Shown here: positions 3,142 through 63,800 of the stretch, piece after piece
How the letters are laid out: every line of letters begins with the position of its first letter
Numbering within the stretch: position 1 is the first letter of the stretch
Assembly (NCBI GenBank): GCA_021780905.1
Contig: JAJXXW010000030.1
Coordinates: forward strand, 1 to 64,000
Length of the DNA stretch: 64,000 nucleotides
Reading direction: 5' to 3'
From: a bacterium
GTDB lineage: Bacteria > Verrucomicrobiota > Verrucomicrobiia > Limisphaerales > UBA11358
Made by a program: the position numbers and the translations under genes
The notes under the pieces: generated by a model
What the model was told of the DNA's origin: nothing
Seen by the model: only the letters and a program-made list of their open reading frames with translations
Database searches by the model: none

Positions 3142-3723
3142 ATGCAGGCGCGCCTCAACGGCCGGCCAGCGCGTGGCCGCAGCATTTCCCCACTCGTCAC
3201 TCGCCACTCGCCACTCATCACGCCAAAAACCATTCTGGGCATTGATCCGTCGGTGCGTGGCACCGGTTACGGCGTCATCCGCTTGGAGAAATCCGGTCCA
3301 GTCGTGCTGGCGCAGGGAACGATTTCCTGCCCGAAAGATTGGGAGCGCTCGCGCTGCCTGGCTAAAATTTCGCAAACGCTCCGCGAGATTCTGTGTCTAT
3401 ACCAGCCGACGGTTTGTGTGGTCGAAGGACTTTTCTTTGCGCAGAATCTGAAGACGGCCATCATCATGGGCGAGGCGCGCGGCGCGGCGATGGCGGCGAT
3501 TGCCGAGGCCGGCTTGGACATTTATGAAATCGCCACGCGCAAGGTGAAGCAGGCTATCGTCGGCTACGGCGCGGCACAAAAACTTGCCGTCGCCAAAATG
3601 GTGCAACGGATGTTGAAACTCGCCGAGTTGCCCGCGCCCGACGCGGCGGACGCGCTCGCGCTGGCACTGACGCATGCGCAGGAAAATTCGCGGCACGGTT
3701 TGAATGCGCCGAAAAAAATTTGA
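3142..3723 (+). CDS. ruvC: Crossover junction endodeoxyribonuclease RuvC
   Basis: ILGIDPSVRGTGYGVI, VVEGLFFAQNLKTAIIMGEARGAAM, DAADALALALTHAQ. Exact start uncertain because a heptamer tract lies at the N-terminus. Confidence 0.93.
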   Translation: MQARLNGRPARGRSISPLVTRHSPLITPKTILGIDPSVRGTGYGVIRLEKSGPVVLAQGTISCPKDWERSRCLAKISQTLREILCLYQPTVCVVEGLFFAQNLKTAIIMGEARGAAMAAIAEAGLDIYEIATRKVKQAIVGYGAAQKLAVAKMVQRMLKLAELPAPDAADALALALTHAQENSRHGLNAPKKI

Positions 3724-3730
3724 GATATGC

Positions 3731-3823
3731 ATGCCGACAAAGTTTTCTCCATTATTTGCAAGCCCTTTGACGATCATCATTCCACTCGCTGTGATTGTAA
3801 TCATAGGCCTGTATTGGTTTTAG
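3731..3823 (+). CDS. Candidate 30-aa single-TM peptide between ruvC and ruvA
   Basis: ATG...TAG encoding MPTKFSPLFASPLTIIIPLAVIVIIGLYWF; below the size of the supplied ORF track. Confidence 0.3.
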   Translation: MPTKFSPLFASPLTIIIPLAVIVIIGLYWF

Positions 3824-3842
3824 GGGCTGGACAAAAATAAAG

Positions 3843-4445
3843 ATGATAACTTTTCTCCAAGGCAAACTCATCGAATCGCTCCCCACTCAAGTCGTGGTGG
3901 AGGTGAACGGCATCGGCTACGAAGTGCTGATGCCGCTCTCTTCCTTTGACAAACTACCACCCATCGGCGGCGGGGTGAAACTGCTCACGCAGCTCATCGT
4001 GCGTGAGGATGCACATGTTCTTTACGGCTTTGCGACGCCAGCGGAGCGCGATTTGTTCCGGCTGCTCATCAACCATGTCAGCGGCATCGGCCCGAAAACC
4101 GCGCTGAACATCTTGAGCGGCATGAACGTCGTGGCTTTTCGCGGCGCGGTGGCGAACAGCGACGTAAAGTCGCTCTCGCAGATTTCCGGCGTCGGCAAAA
4201 AGACCGCCGAGCGCATCGTCGTTGAGTTGCGCGACAAAATCGGCGCCGCCGGCGCGCTGGAGGCCGCGAGCGCCAAACATTCGCTTTCCCCCGACGACCA
4301 GAAAACCAACGACGCCACGCTCGCGCTCATGGCGCTCGGCTTCAAACAAATCGAGGCGCACGACGCCGTCCGCGCCGCCCTGACGATGCTGGGTTCGACG
4401 GCGACCGTGGAACAACTCGTGCGCGCCTGCCTGAAGAAAGGTTGA
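3843..4445 (+). CDS. ruvA: Holliday junction branch migration protein RuvA
   Basis: MITFLQGKLIESLPTQVVVEVNGIGYEV, HVSGIGPKTALNILSG, ISGVGKKTAERIVVELRDK. Confidence 0.95.
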   Translation: MITFLQGKLIESLPTQVVVEVNGIGYEVLMPLSSFDKLPPIGGGVKLLTQLIVREDAHVLYGFATPAERDLFRLLINHVSGIGPKTALNILSGMNVVAFRGAVANSDVKSLSQISGVGKKTAERIVVELRDKIGAAGALEAASAKHSLSPDDQKTNDATLALMALGFKQIEAHDAVRAALTMLGSTATVEQLVRACLKKG

Positions 4446-4455
4446 AATGGCAAAA

Positions 4456-4546
4456 CCTTCAACCTTCGACGCCCAACATCCAGGGTTGGGACGGCCGGCC
4501 ATTTATTGCGCGCTGAAAGTTGGACGTCGAATGTCGAATACTTGAA
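4456..4546. repeat. Paired heptamer-tract element
   Basis: CCTTCAA-CCTTCGA-CGCCCAA-CATCCAG (4456-4483), 35-bp spacer, GTTGGAC-GTCGAAT-GTCGAAT-ACTTGAA (4519-4546), partly inverted, ending 13 bp before the next start codon. Confidence 0.6.
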
Positions 4547-4559
4547 CTTTTAATTTCCC

Positions 4560-5279: not shown

Positions 5280-5282
5280 AAC

Positions 5283-7643
5283 ATGATCGCCCGCGTCAGC
5301 CTGGAAATCGCCCTGCGGAAGGAATTTGATTACTTGATTCCGGCGGCGCTGGCCGGACAGGTGGACGTGGGCAGCCGCGTGCAGGTGCCGTTCGGTCCGC
5401 GCAAACTTCTCGGCGTCGTCACCGCCGTCGCCGAGGAATCCGGCCACGCCAAGCTCAAGCCCATCCTCAAAGTCATCGGCGCGGACACGCTCGTTACGCC
5501 GAAAGTTTTGCGGCTCGCACGCTGGATCGGCGAGTATTACTGCTGCGCGCCGGAGATCGCGCTCAAATCGGTTCTGCCCGAAGCCGTGCGAAAAGAAGAC
5601 GCGGGCTGGCGCGAGCGGCTGTTTGTCCGCGCGCTGGCGGTGAGCGGAGAATTTCCCAAGCTGCCCAAGCGCCAGCAGGAGGTCTGGAACATCGTTGAGG
5701 AACGTCAGGGTATTTTGTTGTCCGAGCTCGTCGAACTGGCGGGAACCACCGCCTCCACGGTCCGCAAGCTGGAAGACCGTGGGCTGATCCGCATCGCCAA
5801 TGAAATATCCGAGCGCGATCCTTACGCGAAGGAAACCATTCTCGCCTCACAGCCGCTGACATTGAATCCGGCACAGGCGGTCGCGCTGGAAAAAATCAAG
5901 ACGGCGATGGATTCAAGAAGCACAGAATGCACCAGGCAGAATGCACAAGTGGCCGGAGCAAAACCGTCAACCGTCAACCATCAACCATCAACCTTTCTTC
6001 TCCACGGCGTCACCGGCAGCGGCAAGACGGAAATCTATCTGCAGGGCATCGCGCACGCGCTGGCAAAAGGCCACGGCGCGATTGTGCTCGTGCCGGAAAT
6101 TGCGCTGACGCCACAGACCGTCGAACGGTTCAAGGCGCGGTTCAGCTCGGGAAAATTGCAGACGCTGGTCGCGGTGTTGCATTCGCATCTGTCTGCTGGC
6201 GAGCGGCATGATGAGTGGCACAAAATCCGGCAGGGGCGCGCGCGCATCGTCATCGGCGCGCGCTCGGCGATTTTTGCGCCGGTCGAGCCGCTCGGCCTCG
6301 TCATTGTGGACGAGGAGCACGAGCAGACTTACAAGCAGGAAGAAGCGCCGCGCTACCATGCGCGTGATGTCGCCGTCATGCGCGGGCAGATGGAAAAAGC
6401 CGTGGTCGTGCTCGGCTCGGCCACGCCGTCACTGGAAAGTTTTTACAATTGCCGGAAGGGAAAATTCGCGCTGCTCGAACTGCCGCAGCGCGTGGATGAG
6501 CAAAAACTGCCGCACACCCGCGTCGTGGACATGCGGCAGACGGCGCGCGACGGCAAAGGTCCACCGCTGTTTTCGCCGCAGCTCAAGGAGGCGATCCAGC
6601 AGCGGCTGGAGCGCAAGGAGCAGACGATTTTATTTTTGAACCGGCGCGGTTATTCCACATCGCTGCAATGCCCCAAGTGCGGCCACGTTTGCGAATGCCC
6701 GAATTGCAGCATTGCGCTCACCTACCATCGCGCCGAACAGAAACTCGCCTGCCACATCTGCGGGCACAACGCGCAGGTCCCCGTCGTCTGCCCGAACGAA
6801 AAGTGCAAGAATCCCGCCATCCGGTTCGCCGGCACCGGCACGCAAAGGGTCGAGGAGACACTTGCGAAAATTTTTCCGCACGCGCGCATCCGGCGCATGG
6901 ACGCCGACACGATGAAGCGCAAGGACGATTACCGCGCGGTGCTCGGTGATTTTCGCGCGGGCAAAATTGACATTCTTGTCGGCACCCAGATGATCGCAAA
7001 GGGGCTGCATTTTCCAAACGTCACGCTCGTCGGCATCATTTACGCGGATTCGGCGCTGCACCAGCCGGATTTTCGCGCGGGCGAGCGCACCTTCCAACTG
7101 CTCACGCAGGTCGCCGGCCGCGCCGGCCGCGGCGATGTGGAAGGCGAAGTCTTCGTGCAGGCGTTCACGCCGTTTCATCCGGCGATCCAATACGCGCGGC
7201 GGCACGACTTCAACGGTTTCTTCGAGCAGGAACTGGAATTCCGCGCCCAGTTGAAATACCCGCCATTCAGCCGTGTCGCGCTGCTCACGCTCAAGGGGCG
7301 CAACGAGGAAAAAGTGAAATTCTCCGCCGAACACCTGAAACGCGAGCTGGAGAAAAAACTCAAATCGCGAGGCGGGGCGGGTGGTCCTTTACCCGCCGCC
7401 GATCGGCTCGCCGGCAACAGCGCCCACGAGGTGAAGCGCCCTGCCGGCTTCAAAGATTTGATGGTCGCCGGTCCCGCGCCCGCGCCGCTGCTGCGCGCGG
7501 AAAACTTTTACCGCTACCAAATCATGCTGCGGACGGGGGCAATGAGCGCGTTGAGCCGCGAACTTGCGGTGATCGTCCAATCGTTGACGCTGCCCGATGA
7601 CGTGACGCTGGCCGTGGATATTGATCCGGTGAGCTTGAGTTGA
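5283..7643 (+). CDS. priA: Primosomal protein N' (PriA helicase)
   Basis: FLLHGVTGSGKTEIY Walker A, IVDEEHEQTYKQEEAPRYHARDVAV, Cys-rich zinc region CPKCGHVCECPNCSIALTYH, QVAGRAGRGDVEGEV. Confidence 0.95.
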   Translation: MIARVSLEIALRKEFDYLIPAALAGQVDVGSRVQVPFGPRKLLGVVTAVAEESGHAKLKPILKVIGADTLVTPKVLRLARWIGEYYCCAPEIALKSVLPEAVRKEDAGWRERLFVRALAVSGEFPKLPKRQQEVWNIVEERQGILLSELVELAGTTASTVRKLEDRGLIRIANEISERDPYAKETILASQPLTLNPAQAVALEKIKTAMDSRSTECTRQNAQVAGAKPSTVNHQPSTFLLHGVTGSGKTEIYLQGIAHALAKGHGAIVLVPEIALTPQTVERFKARFSSGKLQTLVAVLHSHLSAGERHDEWHKIRQGRARIVIGARSAIFAPVEPLGLVIVDEEHEQTYKQEEAPRYHARDVAVMRGQMEKAVVVLGSATPSLESFYNCRKGKFALLELPQRVDEQKLPHTRVVDMRQTARDGKGPPLFSPQLKEAIQQRLERKEQTILFLNRRGYSTSLQCPKCGHVCECPNCSIALTYHRAEQKLACHICGHNAQVPVVCPNEKCKNPAIRFAGTGTQRVEETLAKIFPHARIRRMDADTMKRKDDYRAVLGDFRAGKIDILVGTQMIAKGLHFPNVTLVGIIYADSALHQPDFRAGERTFQLLTQVAGRAGRGDVEGEVFVQAFTPFHPAIQYARRHDFNGFFEQELEFRAQLKYPPFSRVALLTLKGRNEEKVKFSAEHLKRELEKKLKSRGGAGGPLPAADRLAGNSAHEVKRPAGFKDLMVAGPAPAPLLRAENFYRYQIMLRTGAMSALSRELAVIVQSLTLPDDVTLAVDIDPVSLS
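5916..5991. repeat. Two heptamer tracts inserted in frame in priA
   Basis: AGAAGCA-CAGAATG-CACCAGG-CAGAATG (5916-5943) and CCGTCAA-CCGTCAA-CCATCAA-CCATCAA (5964-5991); encode extra residues SRSTECTRQNAQVAGAKPSTVNHQPST just before Walker A. Confidence 0.7.
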
Positions 7644-7647
7644 TATG

Positions 7648-7669
7648 ACCCGGAAATGAGCCGGGTTTT
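7648..7669 (+). terminator. Intrinsic terminator after priA
   Basis: ACCCGG / CCGGGT stem with 7-nt loop then a short T run. Confidence 0.5.
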
Positions 7670-7672
7670 GGC

Positions 7673-7969
7673 GTGCTCCGCCGGGGGAAAATTGCCGCCG
7701 CAATTTTCGTGGCGGAAGTGAAGGCCGCGCGTGGCAAAGTGGCGTTGAAAACCCACCGGTTTGCCGAGGCGACGCAGCTACTCCGCGAGCGCGGCCTTAT
7801 CATTGCCGCAGCGGCCGAACAATTTATCACGCTGGCCGACGGACATTCCACCGCCGAGGTGATCCAGACGCTGGCCGCCGCCGGGTTCGCGATCGGGGGC
7901 CTCTGGCAGCACGAACAGACGGTCGAGAATTTTTATCTGGGCCTGATCAACCGCCAGGAAAAAAATTGA
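7673..7969 (+). pseudogene. C-terminal remnant of an ABC transporter ATPase
   Basis: 98 aa; ends STAEVIQTLAAAGFAIGGLWQHEQTVENFYLGLINRQ, like the C-terminal tail of ABC-2-type ATPases; no Walker A/B or signature motif, and the frame closes upstream at 7646. Confidence 0.5.
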
Positions 7970-7995
7970 ACATCCAACATCCAACGCTAATCATC
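7968..7995. repeat. Heptamer tract
   Basis: GAACATC-CAACATC-CAACGCT-AATCATC; a related, partly inverted GGCGTTG-AGTGTTG tract follows at 8026-8039. Confidence 0.55.
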
Positions 7996-8067: not shown

Positions 8068-8900
8068 TTGCTCGCCCAACTCAAAAATGAGCTGTGGAAG
8101 CTGTTTGGCAAAAAGCGCACCGACATCGGCTTTGGCGCGTTTCTGCTCGCGCAGACGGCGATGCTGCTCGCGTTCAAATACACGCGCTGGCAAAGCGATG
8201 TCGAGCGTCTGCTCAACGGCAACGGCTATCTCGCGGCGGAATTCGTCTCGATCCTCACGGTATCGGTCGTCATGCTGATTCCACAGATCATGCTGCTGAT
8301 GCCGCTCTACGCCACGCTGGTGGGTGGCGATCTGGTGGCCAAGGAGGCCGAGGACGGCACGCTGTGGATGATTCTCTCCCGGCCCATTTCGCGGCTGCGG
8401 CTGCTGTTCGTGAAATGGAGTGCGGGAATCATTTTTGCCGTCGTGCTCGTGCTGATGCCGGGCGGCACGGCGATGGGATTTGCCAGCCTGCTGTTTCCGT
8501 GGAAAGGCATGTTCATGTTTGCCCCCGGCCAGGCGTTCTGTGTTTTGACCGCGCACGAAGGACTGGTGCGGTTCATTTTCTCCCTGCTGTTCATGGCCGT
8601 GAACGCGAGCGTGATGGTCTCGGTCGCATTCATGTTCTCCTGGTTCAACATGAAACCGGCGGCGGCCACAATCCGGGCGCTCTCGTTTCTTTTTGTCAGC
8701 ATGGTCATGGAAAACATCCCGTTTTTGACCGCTACGGGGATTTCTTCATCACGCACCATTTCAAATGCTGGCTGCTGATTTTTTCCGAGCCGGCGCCTTG
8801 GACGCAGATCTGCCAGTCGGAAATCATCCTGTTTGCCGTCAGCGCGACCGCGTTCATCATCGGTGCCGTGGCGTTTCAAGTGCGCAGCATCAAGTCGTGA
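8068..8900 (+). pseudogene. ABC-2 type permease interrupted by a single frameshift
   Basis: Frame of 8068 encodes a multi-TM permease to ...MVMENIPFL; the remainder FDRYGDFFITHHFKCWLLIFSEPAPWTQICQSEIILFAVSATAFIIGAVAFQVRSIKS lies in the other frame. One extra T in the run near 8730 restores ENIPFFDRYGDFFITHHFKCW. Confidence 0.7.
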
Positions 8901-8923
8901 AAGCCCGACCGGGCCGGGCGCGG

Positions 8924-9298
8924 CTAATCTCTGCCTTTTATTTTGAACAGCGCGATGCGCCGCTGGTATTCCGCCTCGGAGACTTCGCGCGGGAAGGCTT
9001 TGCAGGTTTGTTGAAAGCCGGGAAAATTCCAGAGGTTCGGAAAATCCCGGCATTGCTGCGGCTTCACCGGCTGGACAGAGCAACCGTCGCCATCCAGAAA
9101 AACGCAGCCGCCATCCGCCTTTTCCTGCAAGGCCAGTCCGCCGCGATCCCAGCGCAGCCGCGTGAACTGCTGGATGAAATCGGCCTCGCCCAGGCCCTTG
9201 AACGCCGCCAGTCGGGTGATTTCCGCTTCCGTCATCCGCACCTGCCCCGGCCAGCGACAACAGGCCGTGCACCGCTGGCATTCGTAGAAAATCGGCAT
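8924..9298 (-). CDS. YkgJ family cysteine cluster protein
   Basis: FYECQRCTACCRWPGQVRMTEAEI, GCVFLDGDGCSVQPVKPQQCRDFP. Confidence 0.85.
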   Translation of the reverse strand: MPIFYECQRCTACCRWPGQVRMTEAEITRLAAFKGLGEADFIQQFTRLRWDRGGLALQEKADGGCVFLDGDGCSVQPVKPQQCRDFPNLWNFPGFQQTCKAFPREVSEAEYQRRIALFKIKGRD

Positions 9299-11386: not shown

Positions 11387-11473
11387 GGGAAAAGTGATTC
11401 GTTAAATCGTTGAACCGTTGAATTGGAAAGGCGCGGGGAAAATCCGGCGCAGCGTCACGCAGTGACGATTGAG

Positions 11474-11640
11474 AATAGCCCGCCGTTTTAACGGCGGGAA
11501 AATGACCGTGAGTAAACCAAGTCCCGGAGGGACGGCAGAAATAAAATTACAAGACTCTGCCGCCCCTGCGGGGCTTGATTTCATTCCGGCTTCAACCCGC
11601 CGTTGAAACGGCGGGCTATTTTCTTTTGTCCCTGCGGGAC
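11474..11640. repeat. Composite palindromic repeat cluster
   Basis: AATAGCCCGCCGTTTTAACGGCGGG (11474-11498) and its inverted relative CCCGCCGTTGAAACGGCGGGCTATT (11596-11620), with GTCCCGGAGGGAC (11521-11533), GCCCCTGCGGGGC (11562-11574) and GTCCCTGCGGGAC (11628-11640). Confidence 0.8.
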
Positions 11641-11738
11641 ATAGAAGCGTTTGCCGGCGCTGGCGCTTGAAAAATTTCATGGCTCAAAAAACTCTTTTGC
11701 CGAGAAATGGAAAATGAACATCTAAACTAATCTCCGTT

Positions 11739-26602: not shown

Positions 26603-28717
26603 TTACCCGTTCAGCGCGGCAGCGGTCCGACTGACCCGGAAGACGGCGAGGCAAAACTGCGCGGTGGCCGGGTCGTTCAAACACAACGCGCCGGAACGGA
26701 TGCGCGGCAGCGGTTGAGCTTCAAGTTGCAGCGGAAATTTCGCCGCCAGCGACCGGGCATAATCGGGAAAATTATCAAAACCCTCCGCGCGCAACTGGGC
26801 GGCGTTCACCAGCCGGAACGCGCCGAAGCTGTTCTGACCCGCCTGCCGCATCAGTTCCACCAGCACGCGGCCCATCGTGTAGCGCGGGTTGATTTCCACA
26901 ACCGGCTTCAACTTCACTGCGCCACCGGCATCCCGATAGACAAAGGCGTCGATGCCGACCGGCCCGATGAAATCGACCTCCTGCAATTTAGTTTCCAGCC
27001 GGGCGAACAGTTCGCCGTAAAATTCCAGCAGCCGGCTGGAAATGTCCGCCGGCGCGCGGAACCGCGAAACGATTTCTGCCGGAATCCGCTTGCGAAAATG
27101 CGGCTCGGCGAAGTTGGCGACGAACTGGCCGCGCGCGTCAGTCTGCAGGCCGGTATAGCCGCACAGCTTCAGGCCGGGCGCGGCCATTTCGAGCTGCACG
27201 GAAAAATCCGCCAGCCGTTCCAGCCACGGCTCGACCACCAGTTCGCGGTTTTGCGCGAACGCGTTTTCCATCCAGCGCAGCTGGGCCGGCAAAATCTCCG
27301 GCTCGAACAGCCGCAGCGCGTTGCTGCCGGCCACGCCGAACGATTCCTTTACAACAAGGTTGTGGTGGCCGCGGGCGCGGATTTTGGCAATCGCCGCCAG
27401 CGCTGCCGGGACCGAGTTGGCCGCGACGCCGATTTCGTTCTCGGCGCAAAGCCAGTCCGGGGCGGATGGCGGATGGCGGATGGCGGAATTTTGAGAGATC
27501 AGCTTGCGCAAAAAATCCGCGCTCCAGACTTTGGAATAGAGTTGCGCGATTTCCGCGTTGAATCTTTTTTCGTTCGTGCGTTGTTCGCCGGAAACGCTGG
27601 CCAACAACGGCTTGAGCAGTTCAAAGCTGTCCGGTCCCCACGCCCACGGGCGCAGGCGGCCGAGCTTGCGGCTTTTCAAGCCGCCGGCATTTTCCCACTC
27701 CACAAATTCCGGCAACGGGAAGCCGGCCGACTTGAGGCCGCTCAAAAATTCCACCGACGGTTTTTCGCTCACCAGCACGATGTCGTCTTGCCGACACAAA
27801 AATTGCGGCAGGTTTTCCAGATCGCGCGCGAGCTGCGCCTGACGCTTCGTCGGATTGAAAGTTTTGCCCGCAGCGATGCGGCCTTCGGCGAACGGGTTGA
27901 AAATGAAAATGCTCGGGGTGCGGCCTTTGGATTGCGAATAGACCTGCATCTCCGCGATGAACTGCGCGTCGAATCCGGCGGCCCGGCGCCCCTCGACATT
28001 CAGTGAAAATCCCTTGGCGCGCTGCGGCGAGAGCGGAAATTTGAGCGTGCGACAGAAGGCGTCCCAGTCGGATGCATCCGGATTTTTCCACCGGCGGAAC
28101 CACTGCAGGCCGTAGGCGACGTGGCCGATTTCATCGCGGTAAATCTTTTCGAGCAGCCGCGCGGAATCGGCGTCGCCCACGGTCGCGAAGCGGCGGGCGT
28201 AATCGCCGGCAAAATCCAGATTGGCCTGCTCAAAAGTCAGGCAGAGGCCGGCGACGTAGTCAATCGGATGTTCCATCGGCGCGACGCAGCGCCAGAAATA
28301 GCCGCTCACCGGCAGGTCGCCCAGTTCGACGCCGCAGGATTTCATCCGTTCCAGATAAAGCCGCGTGTGTTCCTGCTCGTCCTGGAGCGTGCGCAACACG
28401 CCCTGCCGGAAGGCGGCCGGCGCGTCGGGAAATTTCAGCAGCACGAGCGCCATCAGCTCGGTGGCGAGCAGTTCGTGGTTGGCGAAAAAATGCAGCAGCC
28501 GGCCGCGAGCGGATTTATTTTCGAGCTGGTGCAGGCCGGGAAAATCGCGCTTGCCGGCGGCGGGTGGCTTGAAAAGCAAGTTGGCCGGCCGGCCCGGCCC
28601 GGCGGGCGTGACGAGCGCGGTCCCAGGCCGCTCGTCGGTGATGGCATCCGGCGCGCGAAGTTTTTCCTCGAGCGACGTGGCGAACAAGACCTGTTCGGCA
28701 AATTCACGCAGTTCCAT
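26603..28717 (-). CDS. DUF455 ferritin-like domain fused to an ATP-grasp-like domain
   Basis: N-term HELLATELMALVLLKFPDAPAAFRQGVLRTLQDEQEHTRLYLERM and IYRDEIGHVAYGLQWFRRW; C-term HHNLVVKESFGVAGSNALRLF and KPVVEINPRYTMGRV. Confidence 0.75.
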   Translation of the reverse strand: MELREFAEQVLFATSLEEKLRAPDAITDERPGTALVTPAGPGRPANLLFKPPAAGKRDFPGLHQLENKSARGRLLHFFANHELLATELMALVLLKFPDAPAAFRQGVLRTLQDEQEHTRLYLERMKSCGVELGDLPVSGYFWRCVAPMEHPIDYVAGLCLTFEQANLDFAGDYARRFATVGDADSARLLEKIYRDEIGHVAYGLQWFRRWKNPDASDWDAFCRTLKFPLSPQRAKGFSLNVEGRRAAGFDAQFIAEMQVYSQSKGRTPSIFIFNPFAEGRIAAGKTFNPTKRQAQLARDLENLPQFLCRQDDIVLVSEKPSVEFLSGLKSAGFPLPEFVEWENAGGLKSRKLGRLRPWAWGPDSFELLKPLLASVSGEQRTNEKRFNAEIAQLYSKVWSADFLRKLISQNSAIRHPPSAPDWLCAENEIGVAANSVPAALAAIAKIRARGHHNLVVKESFGVAGSNALRLFEPEILPAQLRWMENAFAQNRELVVEPWLERLADFSVQLEMAAPGLKLCGYTGLQTDARGQFVANFAEPHFRKRIPAEIVSRFRAPADISSRLLEFYGELFARLETKLQEVDFIGPVGIDAFVYRDAGGAVKLKPVVEINPRYTMGRVLVELMRQAGQNSFGAFRLVNAAQLRAEGFDNFPDYARSLAAKFPLQLEAQPLPRIRSGALCLNDPATAQFCLAVFRVSRTAAALNG
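27461..27488. repeat. Heptamer tract inside the DUF455/ATP-grasp ORF
   Basis: GGCGGAT x3 then GGCGGAA. Confidence 0.75.
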
Positions 28718-39541: not shown

Positions 39542-42500
39542 GATGTCCCCTCCGCGAAGCCGCCGAGCAAGGCCGAGAGCCGCGCGATTTTTTCCGCCGC
39601 CGGCCGGTCGCGGAAAATGCCCAGTTCCGGTTTGGCCGGCGTGACGCCGCGCAGGAAAATGTAGCGGACGCCGCCGTAATGCCTTTCGTAATCGTAGCCG
39701 GCGATCCGCGTCCGCAGGTAGCGGTCCAGCGCCACCGTGTAAAGGTGATATTGGAGATCGTAGCCCCGCTCCGTGATTTCGCGCCGCATCGCCGCCGGGC
39801 CGTAATCCTCGGCGCGGTAGCCGAGCGAATTGGATTTCCAGTCCACGATGTAGAAACGGCCGTTGAACTCGAACACGAGGTCAATGAAGCCTTTCAAAAA
39901 ACCTCCGGCGCGCGGAACCGGCAGCGGTGCCGGCAAAAATTTTTGGTCGCGGATCAAGTCCGTCAATTGCCCGCCGTCGAGCGGGCCGGTCGGAAAAAGA
40001 AATTCCAGTTCGCTCATCCGCCTTGCCCGGCTGACGGCCGCGAGCGTGAAGTCGGGATGTTCCGGAGTCAGTGGCGCGTGGCGCAGCCGTTCCAGCATTT
40101 CGCACACGGCCGCGACGTGCGACGCGGTGGCCAGACCGAACGCCTCCAATTGTTGCGATGCCAGCGCCGTCGCGGAAGCCTTGTCATCATTGGCAAAATC
40201 AAATTGCTCCAGGATTTTGTGCAGGCAGTCGCCGGTGCGCGCGCCGGCGGGCAGTGCAAAAATGCCCGTGGCGGCTTCTTCTTCGGCGGCGGGTTTTGTC
40301 CCGGCGTCGGTCGCGTCATGGTCCGGCAAATCCGGCGCGGCGGCCTGCGCCTGTTGCGAGAGCTGCGTGAAGCTCGACAAAAACCACGACGGCCGGATTT
40401 CGCGGGCGCAGGCTTTGGGCGCCAATTTCGCCGCGCCGGACTTTTCCGGCATCCACGGTTCGCCCGGTTCCATTGGCAGACCGGCGACGGCGATGGCGGC
40501 CGGCGACTTTTCCGCGAGGGCGTGCCAGCGGCTTTGCCAGGCCACCGGATGGACGGGCTGTTCGTCGAGAAATTTCACCGGGTCGGCCAACGGTTCGCCC
40601 CGGCCAGCGAGCAGCCAGGCCAGCGCGGTGGATTTATTTTTGGCGTAAGGCGCGCTGACGAGGTAGCACCGGTGCCGGGCGCGGGTCAACGCGACATAGA
40701 GCAGACGCACTTTTTCCGCAAGTTGCTCCTTGGTGGCCTGCTGGGCGTGCGCCGATGCCGGGTCGGGATTCAAATCCCAGATCAATTCGCCAGTGGTCGC
40801 GTCGTGGAAAAGCACGACGTCCAAAACTTTTTGTCCGTGGCATTTGATCGGGCGCAGGCCGGCGTCCTGGGTGACGAACGGACAGAACACCACCGGGTAT
40901 TCCAGCCCTTTCGCGCGGTGGATGGTGACGATTTGCACCGCGTCCTCGTCGCTTTCAAGCCGGAGCTGAAATTCCTCCGCGGCGGCCTCATCGCTGGCGC
41001 GGCGCTGCTCCAGCCATTGCACCAGCCGCGCCGGGCCGAGGTGCTCCGCGCGGCTGGCGGCCGCCAGCAGTTCGGCGAGATGCAGCACGTTGGTGATGCG
41101 GCGTTCGGCGTCGGGAAAGCGCAGCAGATTTTCCACCACTTTTTCCCGGCGCAACCACTGCGCGAACATGAAATGGAAACCGGCGCGCTCCCAGCTTCCG
41201 CGAAATGCGGCAAATTCCTGGAGGCGCGACTCCCACGCGCCTTCGTTCGCGGTGAGTTTCGACAATTGATTTCCGTCCAGGCCGAGCGCGTCCGTCGTCA
41301 GCGCGCATTTCACGGCGGCCTCGCGGCCGGGATTCAAAATGGCGGCGAGGATCCATTGCAGTTCGCGCGCCTCGGCCGACTCAAACACGGTGGCCATGGC
41401 GTGTTCGACGCTGGGAATCTGCAAATCATGCAACGCTTTTTGCACCCAGCCGGCCTGCCGGTGTGATTCCACCAGCACGGCGATATCGCGCGGATTCAGC
41501 CGGCGACCGCCGATGCGAACCTCCTCGCGCAACAGCCGCGACACCTCGGCGGCGACGGCGGCAGGCAGGAATTTCTGCGCCGACTTTGACGACAACGCAC
41601 CATTCTCCGCGCTCCAACTCCAGACTTGAAACGGTGGCGGACGCTGGCCGTCGCGAAAAACCAGCGGTTCGGCGTCCGCCTGACCGGCCGCTTGCACCGG
41701 CTCAAACGAAATCTTTTCCTCGACGAAGGCGGTGGTTTCGCCGGCATTTTCAAAAATCGTGTTGACGGCCTCGACCAGCGCCGCCTCGGAACGCCAGTTG
41801 GTGCCGAGCGAATATTTATTCTGGTCCGGCGCGGATTCCGCCGCGCGCAGATAAGTGTTCACATCCGCGCCGCGAAAGCCGTAGATGGCCTGCTTGGGAT
41901 CGCCGATGAGATACAGCCGGTGCGCCGGGCTTTTGGCAAAAACAGCGTCAAAGATCTTCCACTGCAACGGGTCGGTGTCCTGCGATTCGTCAATCAGCGC
42001 GGCGCGGAATTTTTTGCGGACGGAATGGGCCAGCGCGGCGCCGGCCGGCCCGGCCAGCGCGGCCGCCAGCCGGCTGATGAGGTCGTCGTAGGATTGGTGT
42101 TTGGCCGCCTGCTTCCTTTCGGCGAGCGCCGCCCGCGCCGTGCGCAGAAAATCCAGCCGTTGCGCCAGCGCAAATTCCGCCGCGAGGGCCACCAGCTTTT
42201 CGCAGCCGTCGAACAAGGGCGGATACGGCTTGGGCATTTCCTTTTTCTTGCCCACGTCTTGCCGGACGGCGGAAAGCGAGAAAAACCGGATGGCATCCCA
42301 GACGCCGGCAGACAGCCGGCGGTCAATCAGGCCGTCATCCAACCGGGACATCTGCCCGGCGATTATTTCGGCTTTGGCATGTTCCTTGATCGCCCATTTT
42401 TTCTCCCGGCCGCTGAAATATTTCACCAGGGCGTCGCGATCTTTCACGCCACGCCGCCATTCGGACGCGCAATCGTCCAACGCCATTTGCAAATCTTCGG

Positions 42501-48214: not shown

Positions 48215-49588
48215 TTAATTCCCCAGATACTCGCGCGGGTCGGTGACCTTGCCGGTCAACGCGCTCGCCGCCACCGTGGCCGGCGACGCGAGAAACACCT
48301 TGGATTCCTTGTCGCCCATGCGGCCGGGGAAATTCCGGTTGGTCGCGCTGATGCAGTTGATACCGCTCTTGTTGATGCGGCCGAACGTGTCCACCGGGCC
48401 GCCGAGGCACGCGGCGCAGCCGGCGTTCTCCGTCATCTGCACGCCGGCGTTCACGATGATCTGCCAGATGGTTTCGTTGCCCCAATAAGTCGTCTGCAAA
48501 TCGCGGACGATGTCCGGTGTCGCCGGCACGCCGAAGGTGTCAATGACCACTTTCTTGCCGCGCAAAACGCGGGCGAACTCGATGAAGTCGCTCGTCTTGC
48601 CGCCGGTGCAACTGCCGACGTAGGCGCGATCCAATTTCTGATTCATCTCCTTCGCTTTTTTGCGCTGGCCCGGATCGGGATGGCAGGCGACGGTGGGTTC
48701 GAGCTGGCTCAAATCCACGACGAGTTCATAGACGAACTTTTGATCTTTGTCCGCTTCGACCGGTTGGTAACTGGATTTCGTGCCGTTCAATTTGACGCGG
48801 GCGTCGACGTATTCCGCCGTGCGCGAATCAAATTCAAAAATACCGTTCTTGCCACCGGCTTCAATCGCCATGTTCGCGATGGTCATGCGGTCGTCCATCG
48901 AAAGCGTCTTCGCACCTTCGCCGTCGAACTGCATCGCGCGATAGGTCGCGCCGTCAAAACCGATTTCGCCGATGCAATGGAGGATGATGTCCTTCGCCAT
49001 CACGCCGGGCTGGAGTTTGCCTTCGAGGCGGAAGTGCATAGTTTCCGGAACCTTGATGAGCAATTTGCCCGTGCCCATGACGAAGCCGGCGTCAGTATTG
49101 CCGATGCCGGTGGCGAACTGGTTGAACGCGCCGGCCATGCAGGTGTGCGAGTCGGTGCCGAACAACACTTCGCCGGGCCGCGTGTGTCCCTTGGCCGGCA
49201 GCGCCGCGTGGCAGACGCCAGCGTAGCGGGAGCCGTATTGTTTTTTCATCGCGCCCTTGGTCACGTCGAATTTCCACTGGCCTTTCGGGTCGTCAATGAC
49301 GTCGTAGAAATAGGGCAATCCCTGCTCGTTGGCGAAATCGCGCAGAATGTCCACGTTGCGGTTGGACTTGGAATCGGCGGTGAAAATGTAGTGGTCGGGG
49401 ATGATGACAATTTTATTTTTGTCCCAGACCTTGGCGGTCTGGCCGAACTCGCGTTTGAACACGCCGATGGTGCCCGGGCCGCAGACGTCGTGCGTCATCA
49501 GCACGTCGGCGTTCACCCAGATATTGTCGCCGGCCTGCACGCTGGTCTTGCCGGCCGCGCGGGCGAGGAGTTTTTCAGTCAACGTCAT
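48215..49588 (-). CDS. leuC: 3-isopropylmalate dehydratase large subunit / aconitase family
   Basis: GEVLFGTDSHTCMAGAFNQFATGIGNTDAGFVMGTG, RAYVGSCTGGKTSDF, NAGCAACLGG, CISATNRNFPGRMG. Confidence 0.88.
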   Translation of the reverse strand: MTLTEKLLARAAGKTSVQAGDNIWVNADVLMTHDVCGPGTIGVFKREFGQTAKVWDKNKIVIIPDHYIFTADSKSNRNVDILRDFANEQGLPYFYDVIDDPKGQWKFDVTKGAMKKQYGSRYAGVCHAALPAKGHTRPGEVLFGTDSHTCMAGAFNQFATGIGNTDAGFVMGTGKLLIKVPETMHFRLEGKLQPGVMAKDIILHCIGEIGFDGATYRAMQFDGEGAKTLSMDDRMTIANMAIEAGGKNGIFEFDSRTAEYVDARVKLNGTKSSYQPVEADKDQKFVYELVVDLSQLEPTVACHPDPGQRKKAKEMNQKLDRAYVGSCTGGKTSDFIEFARVLRGKKVVIDTFGVPATPDIVRDLQTTYWGNETIWQIIVNAGVQMTENAGCAACLGGPVDTFGRINKSGINCISATNRNFPGRMGDKESKVFLASPATVAASALTGKVTDPREYLGN

Positions 49589-54433: not shown

Positions 54434-54503
54434 TAGTGATGAGTGCTGGGTGACGAGTGATGAGCCAATACAAACCTACTTGTCCCTCATGACTCATAAC
54501 TGA
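54434..54503. repeat. Paired heptamer-tract element upstream of pilC
   Basis: TAGTGAT-GAGTGCT-GGGTGAC-GAGTGAT (54434-54461) and TCCCTCA-TGACTCA-TAACTGA (54483-54503). Confidence 0.6.
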
Positions 54504-58016: not shown

Positions 58017-58017
58017 T

Positions 58018-58869
58018 ATGCAAACCAGCAGTGACCAGTGGCCGGTGACGGGTGACAGACGGGCGGGGCGTTTCGCGCCTGCCTGCCACGCCTCCCGCCT
58101 CTCGCCTCTCGCACCGGCCTTTACGCTGATCGAGCTGCTGGTCGTGATTGTGATCCTCGGTCTGCTGGCGGCGCTGGCGGTGCCGGCGCTCAAGAACCTC
58201 GGCAAGGCCAACATCCAGGTCAGCGCCGCGCGCCAGTTGCTCGACGACCTCGGCCACGCGCGCCAGCTCGCCATCAGCCAGCACACGACGGTTTACATGG
58301 TCTTTGTGCCGGGAATCTGGAACTTTCCAGCGGGGCAGCAGACGCCGGCGCTGGCGAACCTCTTGGACAAGCAATACACCGGCTATAATTTCCTCTCGCT
58401 CCGGTCCGTGGGCGACCAGCCCGGCCAAAGCACCGTGCAGTATCTTTCCGACTGGAAGTCGCTGCCGGACGGCGCGTTCATCGCGTTGAACAAGTTTTCC
58501 GGCATCACCTACATCACGGACGCCGCCGCCGGCGTGACTTATCAGGTGAACCCCTTTTATTACAGCGCCGGTTTTCGGTTCCCCAACGCGACCAATGCCG
58601 CCGGTCTGGTCAACCTGCCTTACGTCGCCTTCAACTATCTCGGCCAGCTCACGGTGGACGGTGTGAGCGCCTCGACCGCCGACGAATTCATTCCGCTGGC
58701 GCAGGGCACGGTGGGTTACGCCGCCGACCCGAACACCAAGGCGCTGCTTTTTGCCGCGCCGGACGTCACCGAAAATCCGCCGGGCAACAGCACCAACTCG
58801 ATGTTCGACCTCATCCGGGTGGATCACCTCACCGGTCGCGCCACCCAGTTGCAGCAAAAGGTCCCATGA
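58018..58869 (+). CDS. Prepilin-like protein, Verru_Chthon cassette D-like
   Basis: APAFTLIELLVVIVILGLLAALAVPALKNLGKANIQVSAARQLLDDLGHARQLAISQHTTVYMVFVP. Confidence 0.8.
   Translation: MQTSSDQWPVTGDRRAGRFAPACHASRLSPLAPAFTLIELLVVIVILGLLAALAVPALKNLGKANIQVSAARQLLDDLGHARQLAISQHTTVYMVFVPGIWNFPAGQQTPALANLLDKQYTGYNFLSLRSVGDQPGQSTVQYLSDWKSLPDGAFIALNKFSGITYITDAAAGVTYQVNPFYYSAGFRFPNATNAAGLVNLPYVAFNYLGQLTVDGVSASTADEFIPLAQGTVGYAADPNTKALLFAAPDVTENPPGNSTNSMFDLIRVDHLTGRATQLQQKVP
58029..58111. repeat. Paired heptamer tracts in a prepilin leader
   Basis: CAGTGAC-CAGTGGC-CGGTGAC-GGGTGAC (58029-58056) and TGCCACG-CCTCCCG-CCTCTCG-CCTCTCG (58084-58111). Confidence 0.7.
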
Positions 58870-59681
58870 AATTTCAAATTCCAAATTTCAAATTTCAAAT
58901 CGTTCGCGCCCCAGCCGGGCGTGGTCGGGAAATTCGCCCTTCGCCCTTCGCCGTTCGCCGTTCCGCCGCTTTCACGATGATCGAGATCGCGATTTGCCTG
59001 GCCATCATCAGCTTTGCGCTCGTGGCCATCATTGGCGTGCTGCCGCTGGGCATGAACACCCAGCGCGACAACCGTGAGCAGACCGTGATCAACCAGGACG
59101 CCACCGTGCTGGTGGAAGCCGTCCGCACCGCCGCGAGCGGCGCGGACTACCTGACGAATTACGTTTATGCCATCGTCAACACCGGCAACAACACCGGCTA
59201 TTACAACCCGGCGGTCGCCCGCCAGATGAATTTCAATGCCGTCACCGCCGCCTATCCGGGAATGTCCTGGAATCCCTATCTCATCAGCGGTTCCGGAATC
59301 GTCGGTCTTTTGAGCACGCCGGAATATGCCAATGGCATCACCAACCACATCCTCGCCTACGTCCGCTCCCTCAGCGGCCTGGCGTCCGAGCAGCCGCCGC
59401 AGACCAATGCCATCATGGTCGGCGACGCGTTCTCCTATCGGGTGTATTGCGTGAACGCGCCGGTGGCGCAGGACAACCCCGGCTCCCTCTACGGCCGGCA
59501 ACTGAACGCCGGCCTGCACGAGTTGCGGCTGACGTTCCTCTGGCCGCAACTCCCCAACGGCAACGTCGGCAACGGCCGGCAGACCTTCCGGGCGTCCATT
59601 GCCGGCCAGCTCGTGGCGGATCCAGCCAACCAAAGCCTGCTGTATTATTACCGCCCGCAATCCTTCACCCCCGCGCCATGA
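58866..59681 (+). CDS. Prepilin-like protein, Verru_Chthon cassette B-like
   Basis: AAFTMIEIAICLAIISFALVAIIGVLPLGMNTQRDNREQTVINQDATVLVEAVRTAASG. Confidence 0.8.
   Translation: MKFQIPNFKFQIVRAPAGRGREIRPSPFAVRRSAAFTMIEIAICLAIISFALVAIIGVLPLGMNTQRDNREQTVINQDATVLVEAVRTAASGADYLTNYVYAIVNTGNNTGYYNPAVARQMNFNAVTAAYPGMSWNPYLISGSGIVGLLSTPEYANGITNHILAYVRSLSGLASEQPPQTNAIMVGDAFSYRVYCVNAPVAQDNPGSLYGRQLNAGLHELRLTFLWPQLPNGNVGNGRQTFRASIAGQLVADPANQSLLYYYRPQSFTPAP
58872..58962. repeat. Paired heptamer tracts in a prepilin leader
   Basis: TTTCAAA-TTCCAAA-TTTCAAA-TTTCAAA (58872-58899), 35-bp spacer, CGCCCTT-CGCCCTT-CGCCGTT-CGCCGTT (58935-58962). Confidence 0.8.
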
Positions 59682-60838
59682 AATTTAAGCATCCCATTCA
59701 GGCGCCCCGCTTGTCTGGCATCGTTGCTGGTCGTGACAGCGTCATTGCCGGTCGTGACAGCGTCATTGCCGGTCGTGACGGCGTCATTGCCGGTCGTGAC
59801 GGCGTCATTGCCGGTCGTGACGGCGTCATTGCCGGTCGTGACAGCGTCATTGCCGGTCGTGACAGCGTCATTGCCGGTCGGGACAGCGGCGTTGCTGGTC
59901 GGATAATGAGGTTCAGTGAACGGGAAAAGACCTCGGTATCCATCAAAAACAGTCAAAACGGCCAGTTTTACCCCCGACGGGTCTGTCGCGCCTTCACGCT
60001 CATCGAGGTGATGGTGGTGGTGACGCTGCTGGCGCTGATCGTGCTGGCGCTGATGTCGGTGTTCAGCAGCACGCAGCGCGCATTCCGCGCCGCCGTCACG
60101 CAGACGGACGTGCTAGAAGGCAGCCGCGCCGCGATGGACCTGATCGCCGCCGACCTGCGCGGGGTGACGCCGTCCTACGCGGCATATTATTCCGGGGCGG
60201 TAAATTTTTTTGTTACGAACAACGCCAGTTATTCCCAGCCGCTGGTGCAGTCGCTGCCGGGCGGCAATGCCAGCCGGTCCAACCTGCTGCAGGAGATATT
60301 TATTTTGAACCGGCAAAACACCCAGTGGTGGGGTGTGGGTTATGCCATCTCCTTCAATTCATCGGGCAACCTGTATTCCCTCTACCGTCTGCAAGCTCCG
60401 TTGCCTCCGGGCACCACTGACCCGACCGTGATTTTTAACAGCCCGGCCTTTCAGAATTTTTTCCAGAACCCGGCCAATCCGGCCAACGGCGGGAGCCATC
60501 TGCTCGACGGCGTGGTGCATCTGGTGGTTCGCGCCTATGATCCGAACGGCGTGTGGATTGCGCCCGGCTATGCGCTCTACACCAATTTTCTGAACGAAGC
60601 CACGCTGCCTTTCCCGCTGGCGGGCGGCGAAGCCGGCTTTGTCATGTATAGCAATGTGGTCCCCGCCGCGGTGGAGCTGGAAATGGGCGCGCTGGAAGAC
60701 CAGGTGCGGGCGCACGCGGAAGCGCTACCCGGCGGCTCGGCGGCGCAACTGCAATACCTTTCGCAGCAGGCGGGCGCGGTGCATCTGTTCCGCCAGCGCG
60801 TCACCATCCCCAACGTGGACTCCACGGCCTACCAATGA
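59678..60838 (+). CDS. Prepilin-like protein, Verru_Chthon cassette C-like, with repeat-bearing leader
   Basis: RAFTLIEVMVVVTLLALIVLALMSVFSSTQRAFRAAVTQTDVLEGSRAAMDLIAADLRGVTPS. Alternative start ATGAGGTTCAGTGAA at 59906. Confidence 0.8.
   Translation: MKFKHPIQAPRLSGIVAGRDSVIAGRDSVIAGRDGVIAGRDGVIAGRDGVIAGRDSVIAGRDSVIAGRDSGVAGRIMRFSEREKTSVSIKNSQNGQFYPRRVCRAFTLIEVMVVVTLLALIVLALMSVFSSTQRAFRAAVTQTDVLEGSRAAMDLIAADLRGVTPSYAAYYSGAVNFFVTNNASYSQPLVQSLPGGNASRSNLLQEIFILNRQNTQWWGVGYAISFNSSGNLYSLYRLQAPLPPGTTDPTVIFNSPAFQNFFQNPANPANGGSHLLDGVVHLVVRAYDPNGVWIAPGYALYTNFLNEATLPFPLAGGEAGFVMYSNVVPAAVELEMGALEDQVRAHAEALPGGSAAQLQYLSQQAGAVHLFRQRVTIPNVDSTAYQ
59723..59902 (+). repeat. 8 x 21-bp tandem repeat plus partial ninth unit
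   Basis: Unit ATTGCCGGTCGTGAC(A/G)GCGTC, encoding IAGRD(S/G)V; first unit and last partial unit begin GTTGCT. Confidence 0.97.
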
Positions 60839-63800
60839 AAACAAACAGTGACAAGTGGCAAGTGACCAGCGACCCGCAACCCCGTCCGGTGCGCCGCGCA
60901 GAGGCCTTTGCCCGCCACGCAGCACGCGTCGCTCACCCCTCCGAAACGGGCATCGCGCTGGTCATCACGCTCATCTTGCTGGCGGTGACGCTGGTCATGG
61001 CCGTGGCGTTCCTGGCCCTGGCGCGGCGCGAGCGCAACGCCGTCAACACCTCCACCGACACCGCAGTCACGCGGCTGGCCACCGATTCCGCGCTGGCGGC
61101 GGCCCAGGCGCAGATCGTCGCCAACCTCCTCGCCGCCAGCAGCCCCTACAATTACGGCCTGCTGGTCTCCACCAATTACCTCCCGACATTCCCCTACGAT
61201 CCGTTCAACGTCGGCAACATCCTGCCCCGCCCGCCGGTCTATGTCCCGACCAACGGCGGCTATGATTTCCGGTTCTATCTCGATCTGAACCGCAACGGGC
61301 AGGACGATCCGAACGGGCTGGTGCCGAACGTGGACAATGCCGGCAACACCAACGGCAGCATTTTGGAGGTGGGCGATCCGGAATGGATTGGCGTGCTGGA
61401 GCATCCCGACCAGCCGCCCGGGCCGAACAATCATTTCGTGGCGCGCTACGCGTTTGGCGCCCTGCCCGCCGGGAACACGCTGGACTTGAATTATATTCAC
61501 AACCAGACGCTGAATCCGAGTCTGGCTCCGGCAACAGATGGCTTTTTCCGCAATGAAAGCGTCGGCTCGTGGGAGTTAAACCTCGCGGCGTTCCTCGCGG
61601 ATTTGAACACCAACCAGTGGAACACCGTTTTTTCGCCCTATAATTATTCCCGGTGGTTCAACAACAACTTCAACGGCGGCGGCGCGTTTAACGACGCCCT
61701 TTCACTTTTGTCCTGGCGTTACGCCTACAATTACAGCTCGCTTGTCGCACCGCCGTTCAGCCTTTACAGCGCGATCTTGGGGTCTGGCGTGGACGCTTAC
61801 AATCTGGGCGGCTTGATGACCAACACCTTTTTGCCGGTGCCCAATCCGCCCGGTGGACCCAGCGCGCCGTGGGCCGGTTCCAGCAGCGCCAACCAGTTTT
61901 TTGCGCTGCCCTCGGATTTGTTCGACCCGACCAAAAGCTCGTCCGGTTTCACCAACCGGCTGATGAGCGCCGGCAACAGTCCGGCCACCTACGACCGCTA
62001 CACCTTTTACCAGTTGCTGAACCAGCTCGGCACCGATTCCACGGCCGACGACGGCCGGATGGATGTGAATTACCGAAACATCACCAACGGCGTGGTGGTG
62101 TCCGGCATGGAGACGAATTGTTATCCCTGGGATCCGCTGGAATTTTTCCTCAACGCGGCGAACCGGCTGCTGACGAATGCCACCACCACCTGGCTGGCGG
62201 CCGATTACACCGCCTACACCAACACCTTTGGCGCGTCCGTCACCACCGCCTTTGGCGTGGGGAACATCCCGGTCTATGTCAACGGCCAGTTTGTCTATAC
62301 GCCCGCCGTCAACCGGCTGCTCCAGCTCGCGGCGAACATGTATGACGCCACCACCACCAGCCGGTTCCCGTCCGTCTTCCGGCCGGTCTTCACGCGGATT
62401 CCAGATGGCGCGAACCAAAACGTGTTCATCATCGGCTACAACCAGATCACCAACGTAACCACGGCCACCATCAACACGGATCCGGCCAACCCGTTGTATC
62501 ATCCCTTCAGCCTGCCGGACATTGCGGCCACGATGGCCACCGGTGTGCCGAACTACATCAACATCTACGGTGTGCCGTGGATCATCGGCGCGAAAAAAGG
62601 CTTCCCCAACTTCAACGAGTTCGCGATGGAGAACACCTTCACCGTCACGCGGCGGCTGAACATCACGCGGGCGATCAATGGCGGCACGTCGGTCCTCACC
62701 GGCACGAACCAGATGTATATGATCAGCCTGAACAGTTCCCTCGGCGTGGAACTGTGGAATTCCTACACTAATTACTATCCCGGCAATATCACGGTGGGCT
62801 TGAACGAGATTGCCTGGATGTCCATCACCAATGACGATCCGGGATTTGCGCAGCATCCGGGCATTGCCCAGCCGATCCCCTTTTCCACCAACGGCCTCTA
62901 TGCCATCAACAACTGGCCCGGTTCCGGCACCCGGCTGGCGAGCGGCTATGCCAATCCCGGCTCGTTCATGGTGGCCAGCTTCGCGGGGCCGACGCTGACG
63001 AACGCCGTTTACCGGTCGCCATTTGCGAACAGCTTGACGATGCCGCCGGGCCTGGTCGCGCCGTGCCTGATTCCGACCAATTATTTTGCCTACCTCGGCC
63101 TGCCGCTGCTGTTTGAGGCCAACTCGCCGAACGGTTTTCATTTCCCGCAGTTTGGCGTGACGCTGACGAACCGGTTGCAGGTTTATATGATTGACACGAC
63201 CACCACGCCCAATCACGTCATTGACTATGTGAGCTTCGCCGGGCCGGACGGCGGTTTCAATGTGAACTCCAACCTGGCTGACACCGACGCCAGCCTGGTC
63301 GGCGCGAGCTACGGCGTGTGGAACATGAATTATCCGGCCGGCAGTTCCGGCCCCAATGGCGTGACGCTGGGCATCCAGAGCCAGATCCAGGCTTCGAAGA
63401 CCGGCAACGTGCCGGGCGAGGACGGCCCTTGGAATGCCGATCCCGAGGCGGTGCCGCTGGGCGGCACGGCGTGGCAGCAGGCTGGTTATTTCAGTGCGTT
63501 CATGAAGGGCACCACTTATGCCGGCCGGCCCATTCCGCTCTTGAGCATCCAGGCGCCGTATTCGCCGACCCGGTCGGTGGTGCAGTATTTCTCGTGGCAG
63601 GCCAACGACCCGCTGGTGCATTACCTGGCCAGCGACATCGCCGCGCCGCCGCCCGTGCCCAACAACTCGACCATTCCGCAACTGGGCGTGAACCATTACA
63701 ACCCCAATCAGGTCCTTTTGCCCCTGACCTCGCTCAACCTCGGCCAGTTGAATGAGAAGTATATGCCCTGGGGCGGCAACCCGGTTTACGGCAACGCGCG

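Follow-up and report, generated by a model that had tools for sequence, protein, structure and literature searches.

The window analysed here, a 64,000-nucleotide stretch of a draft genome from the order Limisphaerales, carries short heptanucleotide tracts whose unit sequences differ from place to place. These tracts raise the question of what could hold the period at seven bases and leave the sequence of the unit free.

Period, length and placement of the tracts

We scored lag-7 periodicity at the 14 sites of the window listed in the first-pass annotation, using a +1/−1 scheme. Nine sites were strong, two were moderate, two were weak, and one (5916–5943) gave no signal. These scores indicate that heptanucleotide tracts with a single period are real, and that the site at 5916–5943 does not belong among them. 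The features are as follows.

3191–3221, + strand: CACTCGY, 4 copies, in the N-terminal extension of RuvC (Pfam PF02075); score 18
4454–4539, no strand assigned: weak pair of heptamer arms between ruvA and an acyltransferase gene; scores 8 (4454) and 9 (4514)
5916–5943, + strand: first noted priA tract, with no lag-7 segment; an imperfect 14-bp word, CAGAATGCAC, is repeated
5962–5993, + strand: AACCRTC, 4.6 copies, in the inter-domain linker of PriA directly before LLHGVTGSGKTE; score 23
7962–7985, + strand: AACATCC, 2.4 copies with a degenerate flank, downstream of priA; score 11, also a TRF hit
27461–27487, − strand: perfect GGCGGAT, 3.9 copies, inside a DUF455-containing gene (26603–28717, − strand); score 20
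34304–34329, + strand: CCAYCAG, 3.7 copies, in PrmC directly before the methyltransferase domain; score 15
54435–54464, + strand: degenerate AGTGATG, 4.3 copies, closely upstream of the gene starting at ATG 54508; score 11
58029–58056, + strand: CAGTGAC, 4 copies, encoding part of the prepilin leader peptide of gene 58018–58869 (mature start PAFTLIELLVVIVIL); score 13
58089–58112, + strand: CGCCTCT, 3.4 copies, in the same prepilin leader peptide; score 15
58869–58900, + strand: AAATTTC, 4.6 copies, in the leader of a second pseudopilin, gene 58866–59681 (mature start AAFTMIEIAICLAII); score 21
58933–58963, + strand: TTCGCCS, 4.4 copies, in the same pseudopilin leader; score 22
60847–60882, + strand: degenerate AGTGRCM, 5 copies, where the fourth gene of the run begins (ATG 60836); score 17

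At a threshold of at least 13, the window gave nine segments at lag 7, one at lag 6, two at lag 9, and none at lags 8, 10, 11, and 13. The genome statistics were drawn from 864 kb of the 3.89 Mb genome, which gave 19 segments of at least 16 at lag 7 (+1/−2 scheme), none at lags 6 and 8, and three at lag 9. Perfect lag-7 arrays of at least 24 bp numbered 20 in 1.26 Mb of the source genome and its relatives, where the control lags gave at most one perfect array at any one length; 200 kb of Escherichia coli gave none at lag 7. Perfect arrays reached 39 bp, and long runs were nearly absent at the control lags. The enrichment was confined to lag 7 and its multiple 14, in coding and intergenic DNA alike. 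Lag 8 was mildly raised in one wider array survey, and a few octamer arrays exist (e.g., in the priA linker of the congener G026), so seven is a preference and not an absolute. Autocorrelation at lag 7 thus exceeded that at neighbouring lags in the 864 kb and in the relatives, and the proposed combination of fixed period and free sequence held genome-wide and among congeners.

The arrays had a median length of 30 bp and a maximum of 39 bp (57 arrays), typically about 24–33 bp or 3 to 5 units, so that the noted copy number close to four stands. We found 50 different unit classes among 67 arrays, and 22 pairs of loci with identical units against 4 expected. Twenty-one of 26 arrays (81%) lay in genes, where they occupied loops, linkers, leader peptides, and N-terminal extensions, and 23% of arrays fell in the first 30 codons compared with 7% of random positions, which agrees with the tracts having been described at gene starts and inside genes. 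Partial units of 2–5 nt ended 140 of 187 arrays. Microhomology would leave such ends, whereas blunt 7-bp duplication predicts remainders of 0–1. A peak at 33 bp had hinted at a sharp 5+2 core-spacer design, but this pattern softened after removal of duplicates; remainders of 2 to 5 were all enriched, and the claim is therefore limited to microhomology of 2–5 nt.

Orthologous sites in congeners

Congeners carried heptamer arrays with differing units at one and the same site in the ThiE loop, the GT9 (heptosyltransferase-family) loop, the RuvC N-terminus, the PriA linker, and the LipA loop. Congeners lacking an array also existed for the sites compared, and some genes that are otherwise conserved had an array in a single lineage. 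The tracts did not align base by base across distant orthologues.

The ThiE loop was of equal length in all 29 congeners, none being shorter or longer, yet it held five unit families. Base differences in this loop recurred 7 nt away at 0.275, compared with 0.02–0.09 at lags 2–6 and 8–13 and a permuted maximum of 0.176, and the arrays aligned codon by codon with array-less congeners. Different unit families occurred even in the sister pair G079/G090 (84% support), the one comparison for which we used the species tree, many of whose nodes are weakly supported. In regard to GT9, the lag-7 statistic reached 0.356 among seven congeners of equal loop length, where permutation gave 0.164 at most; this class exceeds the array-less class by exactly 21 nt (three units). 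We demoted a candidate equal-length array birth in the GT9 gene of the source genome, since it may descend from the longer array class, in which case a −21 contraction may account for it.

LipA had no array in 28 of 30 congeners; the two arrays, at one shared loop, added 18 nt in G000 (AAACGCA) and 15 nt in G002 (ATTCAAA) relative to the others. The LipA unit of the source genome resembles what the array-less form has at that place (AAACGC..AAAAC). Arrays at the RuvC N-terminus were present in 14 of 30 congeners with units other than CACTCGY, and the PriA linker likewise had other units in other species. In a pseudouridine-synthase/methyltransferase fusion, one congener had a 12-bp seed (AAATC-GG-AAATC) and its relatives had 33-bp arrays and 21 additional nt. 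The closest pair, G003/G016 (approximately 90% identical), gave no array births; the arrays compared aligned at every base and differed by nothing but point substitutions. A unit that changes between species while its place does not points towards a copying error with a backward step of seven bases.

Inverted partners and known repeat systems

A same-unit inverted partner arm lay near 25 of the 67 arrays (37%) compared with 6% in the control and 0% for direct partners; the arms were thus more alike than expected, as in quasipalindromes. Neighbouring array pairs numbered 17 against 0.9 expected, 10 being inverted and none same-strand. The arms at 4454–4539 are mutual imperfect inverted repeats (TTCGACGYCCAAC) with a modest predicted stem (z −1.6). 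Some inverted pairs folded far better than shuffles (z −5.4 for L078 and −3.6 for L043), and the pairs of the window folded not clearly better than shuffles. The slipped hairpin proposed as a structural element has support only at the roughly 37% of arrays with an inverted partner. The noted spacing of 35 bp (5×7) is arithmetically correct for two pairs, but it is no rule: neighbouring arrays lay 2–55 bp apart, and the distances between their starts showed no modulo-7 preference. The exact 35-bp spacing is a coincidence.

Arrays of the same class, with many units, turned up in a scatter of lineages from at least eight phyla; within the phylum of the source genome they were restricted at the order level. 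The unit (AGAAGYC)n recurred across phyla; a shared cross-phylum vocabulary was rejected, since the number of units that the group has in common with other phyla (8 vs 6.4 expected) was at the level of chance. Literature searches gave no specific report of heptanucleotide repeats in Verrucomicrobia and no relevant one of nucleotide heptad repeats in Geobacter.

Cyanobacterial STRR are also short heptamer arrays, but they have one or few unit sequences in common, unlike the 50 units in 67 arrays here. The analogy drawn in the first-pass annotation was apt; the uniqueness it implied is lost, because many-unit arrays span these phyla and heptamer over-representation is published. As related in PMC4679880 and PMC4692102, Mrazek, Guo and Shah (2007) found heptameric long simple sequence repeats over-represented in prokaryotes and proposed slippage and a polymerase footprint. 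The present arrays resemble that class in that the seven-nucleotide period is more frequent than other unit lengths and the repeats are longer than expected for the genome; they differ in their free, degenerate units, their length of about four units, their location mostly in genes, and the replacement of units at fixed sites in congeners. As a tendency rather than a defining trait, units whose length is not a multiple of three are reported to sit mainly outside genes (PMC4679880), unlike the arrays here. The TAACTGA repeats of Beggiatoaceae likewise have few copies (2–6) near start codons, but they share one unit, are mostly intergenic, and have related heptamers that are rarely repeated (PMC4679880). 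The GGGNATC quadruplex repeats of Xanthomonas and Nostoc are also heptamers, with a mode of four units, species-variable length, and inverted (convergent) pairs, and are mostly intergenic (PMC4692102); the unit list here has no G-rich consensus, no run of at least three G per unit, and no one shared unit. In quasipalindromes, template switching onto the nascent strand homogenises the arms and yields multinucleotide changes in coding DNA (PMC7202029, PMC8604942). Preliminary results indicate that direct repeats also promote such changes (PMC8604942), but these reports do not describe direct repeats being homogenised at a fixed 7-nt step.

Origin of the tracts

We lean towards template switching (stutter) that is primed by microhomology, recurs, and steps by 7 nt, its outcomes being filtered by reading-frame selection. 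The tracts would be traces of a mutational process that acts repeatedly and does not depend on sequence. The nascent 3′ end would slip back during DNA synthesis, with a strong preference for 7 nt, and re-anneal through a few bases of microhomology; one short template would then be copied several times (about 26–33 nt in total) before rejoining. A like switch onto an inverted partner (snap-back) would homogenise inverted arms, for which PMC8604942 and PMC7202029 provide precedent, coding DNA included. Arrays would arise in place and persist, with units overwritten in register (concerted evolution). Within genes only frame-keeping outcomes would survive, and arrays would therefore build up in loops, linkers, leader peptides, and N-terminal extensions. 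The suggested copying or slippage mechanism that counts seven is, given the orthologue evidence, the best-supported reading; we infer template switching as its cause, the length of the microhomology, and a mutational rather than selected origin. This account leaves the choice of seven as the step unexplained.

Ordinary slippage of heptamer microsatellites, with whole-unit gain and loss, point mutation, and frame selection but no template switching, is possible, if rather unlikely. Most genomes contain more heptamers than any other class of long simple repeat, and a polymerase footprint that would favour seven was proposed by Mrazek and co-workers (related in PMC4679880 and PMC4692102). Slippage over several units would also suit the 21-nt steps in GT9 and in the fused methyltransferase. 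However, a random walk would give a decaying length distribution, whereas lengths peak near four units and none in the group exceeds 39 bp. Steps of 7 bp are frameshifts in genes, the coupled inverted arms are left unexplained, and ThiE keeps one length despite unit turnover, although paired −21/+21 slippages can also reach that constancy.

It is improbable that the tracts are elements with a function in DNA or RNA (binding of proteins, control of translation, hairpins) that selection keeps periodic. The excess near gene starts, the well-folding inverted pairs, and the TAACTGA repeats upstream of start codons in Beggiatoaceae (PMC4679880) speak for such elements, but the number of unit classes leaves nothing for sequence recognition, most source-genome arrays lie in genes, some congeners lack arrays at the sites compared, and the window's own pairs do not stand out clearly from shuffles in folding.

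Insertion of dispersed cassettes or a MITE/REP-like mobile element carrying an array or inverted pair is very unlikely. Inverted arms that enclose a loop of some 30 bp look like a small hairpin element, and units recur between loci and, for (AGAAGYC)n, across phyla. The copies, however, have no common sequence, their loops differ, and both the codon-by-codon alignment of ThiE and the local resemblance of the LipA unit argue against insertion. Among these undated arrays, neither a full-length copy linked to a transposase nor target-site duplications were seen.

Still less probable is protein-level selection for a heptad or amphipathic 7-residue repeat, with a 21-nt and incidentally 7-nt DNA periodicity. 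The ThiE and GT9 loops keep hydrophobic residues seven apart (x-E-L-...-x-L-x-I), but such a repeat gives lag 21, which was not clearly above other multiples of three; codon-permuted controls fall short of the observed lag-7 statistic, and intergenic arrays largely refute it. An assembly artefact is hardly credible even for a 96-contig metagenome-assembled draft with 6.65% contamination, since dozens of independent assemblies have the same sites in frame with conserved flanks, and named strains (Okeania hirsuta, Chlorogloeopsis fritschii, and Pedobacter montanisoli) carry arrays too.

That bacteria have an excess of heptamers was reported in 2007, and why heptamers dominate bacterial repeats has been a question since then; unit-free, in-gene, in-register turnover appears to be a new form of this phenomenon. 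The process behind the tracts has left comparable footprints at shared sites in dozens of congeners, including fixed-length conserved enzymes, so its mechanism, step size, microhomology, and rate are measurable. More tentatively, a polymerase or repair step of some lineages may rewrite patches of about 30 nt from a neighbouring 7-nt template, length-neutrally and independently of sequence, on direct and inverted neighbours, and so drive the evolution of protein loops. The tracts are a hazard for gene alignment and for their own reading as regulatory sites, and the process would alter whole protein loops, of up to about 12 codons, in a way that escapes ordinary substitution models.

The heptanucleotide signal and its position in genes

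We re-read the sequence of the 14 degenerate heptanucleotide tracts of the first-pass annotation (3191–60873) and then scored base matches between the sequence and itself 7 nt on (lag 7). Nine tracts were strong, two were moderate (7962 and 54435) and two were weak alone (4454 and 4514), but 5916–5943 had no lag-7 signal. Most were independently listed by Tandem Repeats Finder, which also reported two 24-bp tandem duplications (42028–42074 and 48419–48464). The single period of 7 was confirmed: nine segments of the window scored ≥13 at lag 7, whereas lags 8, 10, 11 and 13 gave none, lag 6 gave one and lag 9 gave two. Only lags 7 and 14 (2 × 7) were in excess when 864 kb from the window's genome and 400 kb from relatives were analysed, and 20 perfect lag-7 arrays of ≥24 bp were found against at most one at any single length for each control lag. 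No lag-7 array was found in 200 kb of E. coli K-12. Array lengths were unimodal with a median of 30 bp and none above 39 bp (n = 57), in agreement with the proposed copy number near 4. The 67 arrays classified by unit used 50 of 1172 possible unit classes.

According to a simple codon-usage gene caller, 21 of 26 arrays of the window's genome lay within predicted genes, and an excess within the first 30 codons upheld the earlier description of tracts at gene starts.

Arrays in genes of the window
RuvC: N-terminal extension
PriA: linker
PrmC: ahead of the methyltransferase domain
Consecutive pseudopilin genes 58018, 58866 and 60836: leader peptides, 5' of the mature motif (e.g. AFTLIELLVV)

The third pseudopilin gene (ATG near 59679) carries 8.5 copies of a 21-bp unit in its leader (59724–59901, coding (GRDSVIA)n) and the motif RAFTLIEVMVVV near 59990; repeats lie close to the start in all four genes of this run. 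At another locus (L012), matching AAGGCTG arrays (6645–6674 and 8895–8924) with similar right flanks lie near the starts of two genes about 2.2 kb apart, which are possibly paralogues.

Different units at the same site

The PriA linker ahead of LLHGVTGSGKTE contains CCRTCAA in the window and CAGAAGY, AAGGATG, CAACCAT, GGAACGC, GATGGAA and others in relatives. Arrays with drifting units occurred at the RuvC N-terminus in 14 of 30 congeners. The ThiE loop preceding GLSTH is 12 codons long in all 29 congeners recovered, 18 of which have arrays there (unit types CAATTGS, AAYTNAA, TCAGAAG, ATTGCGG and CTCCCAT). Of the base differences between two species in this loop, 27.5% were repeated at a distance of 7 nt, compared with 2–9% at lags 2–6 and 8–13, maxima of 15% and 17.6% under column and codon permutation, respectively, and 1.3–3% in the flanking sequence. 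A glycosyltransferase-9 loop gave the same pattern (35.6% at lag 7) in a class of congeners whose loop exceeds that of the array-less class by exactly 21 nt. In lipoyl synthase, 2 of 30 congeners have arrays with differing units in one loop and the others have none there. Relatives carry 33-bp arrays in a pseudouridine-synthase/methyltransferase fusion; at that site, one congener has a 12-bp seed (AAATC-GG-AAATC) instead. Existing arrays aligned base by base in the closest pair (~90% identity), which indicates that turnover at the small number of sites seen is slow relative to this divergence.

Inverted arms and a proposed mechanism of array formation

Terminal partial units of 2–5 nt were found in 140 of 187 arrays. 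Array pairs ≤100 bp apart numbered 17 against 0.9 expected; 10 of these were inverted copies of one unit (≥5 of 7 bases), and none were same-strand copies. An inverted arm lay near 37% of arrays, compared with 6% in a control using the units of other arrays, and no such arm was found in direct orientation.

The 7-nt-step arrays, same-unit inverted arms, partial ends, birth from seeds and in-register replacement fit recurrent template switching. The nascent strand would repeatedly switch template through short microhomology with a direct step of 7 nt, arrays would be born from local seeds and their units replaced in register, and reading-frame selection would filter the outcomes in genes. Plain replication slippage, the main rival, accounts for expansions but does not explain turnover at constant length, the peak in copy number or the coupling of inverted arms. 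The slipped hairpin suggested earlier finds support only in the 37% of arrays that have an inverted arm. Some inverted pairs fold into long hairpins (loci L078, z −5.4, and L043, z −3.6), but those of the window itself are unremarkable. Template switching is established as a means of homogenising inverted arms in E. coli and yeast, coding DNA included (PMC8604942, PMC7202029). For the step of 7, our literature search found a single published proposal, the polymerase footprint of Mrazek et al., as cited in PMC4679880 and PMC4692102.

Two Acido-Lenti-1 RNAs (RF01687), a family named from Acidobacteria and Lentisphaerae, lie inverted about 100 bp apart at 11453–11498 (−) and 11596–11641 (+).

Distribution across bacteria

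Heptamer over-representation is already known, as are single-unit heptamer systems in Cyanobacteria, Beggiatoaceae and Xanthomonas (PMC4692102, PMC4679880). In the open-licence papers that we read, we found no description of unit-free heptamer arrays in conserved genes, of constant-length in-register turnover among congeners or of systematic inverted pairing over many units; earlier ones may exist.

The window comes from a 3.89-Mb draft genome, in which it is contig 64, and the helicase part of its PriA is 89% identical in a relative labelled "uncultured Verrucomicrobia subdivision 3 bacterium". Lag-7 enrichment was strong in the genus and order of this genome; other orders of the class yielded no array in 120 kb, and other classes of the phylum yielded three in 280 kb. 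The recurrent unit AGAAGYC matched at least 119 contigs in a scan of GTDB genomes, and the matches listed included Acidobacteria, Cyanobacteria, Nitrospirae, Nitrospinota, Deltaproteobacteria, Planctomycetes, Bacteroidetes, Chloroflexi and Verrucomicrobia. Octamer arrays such as GGGGAAGA occurred at a low rate at the same kind of site (the priA linker of relative G026, L038, and AGAAGYC contigs among the matches listed), which indicates that a step of 7 is preferred without being fixed. Outside the matched array, the AGAAGYC contigs among the matches listed contained plentiful lag-7 arrays of other units (61 at score ≥20, compared with 8 at lag 8 and 0–1 at lags 9–13). The presence of these other-unit arrays in contigs of many phyla indicates that the phenomenon is patchy across bacteria and not peculiar to the window's genome.
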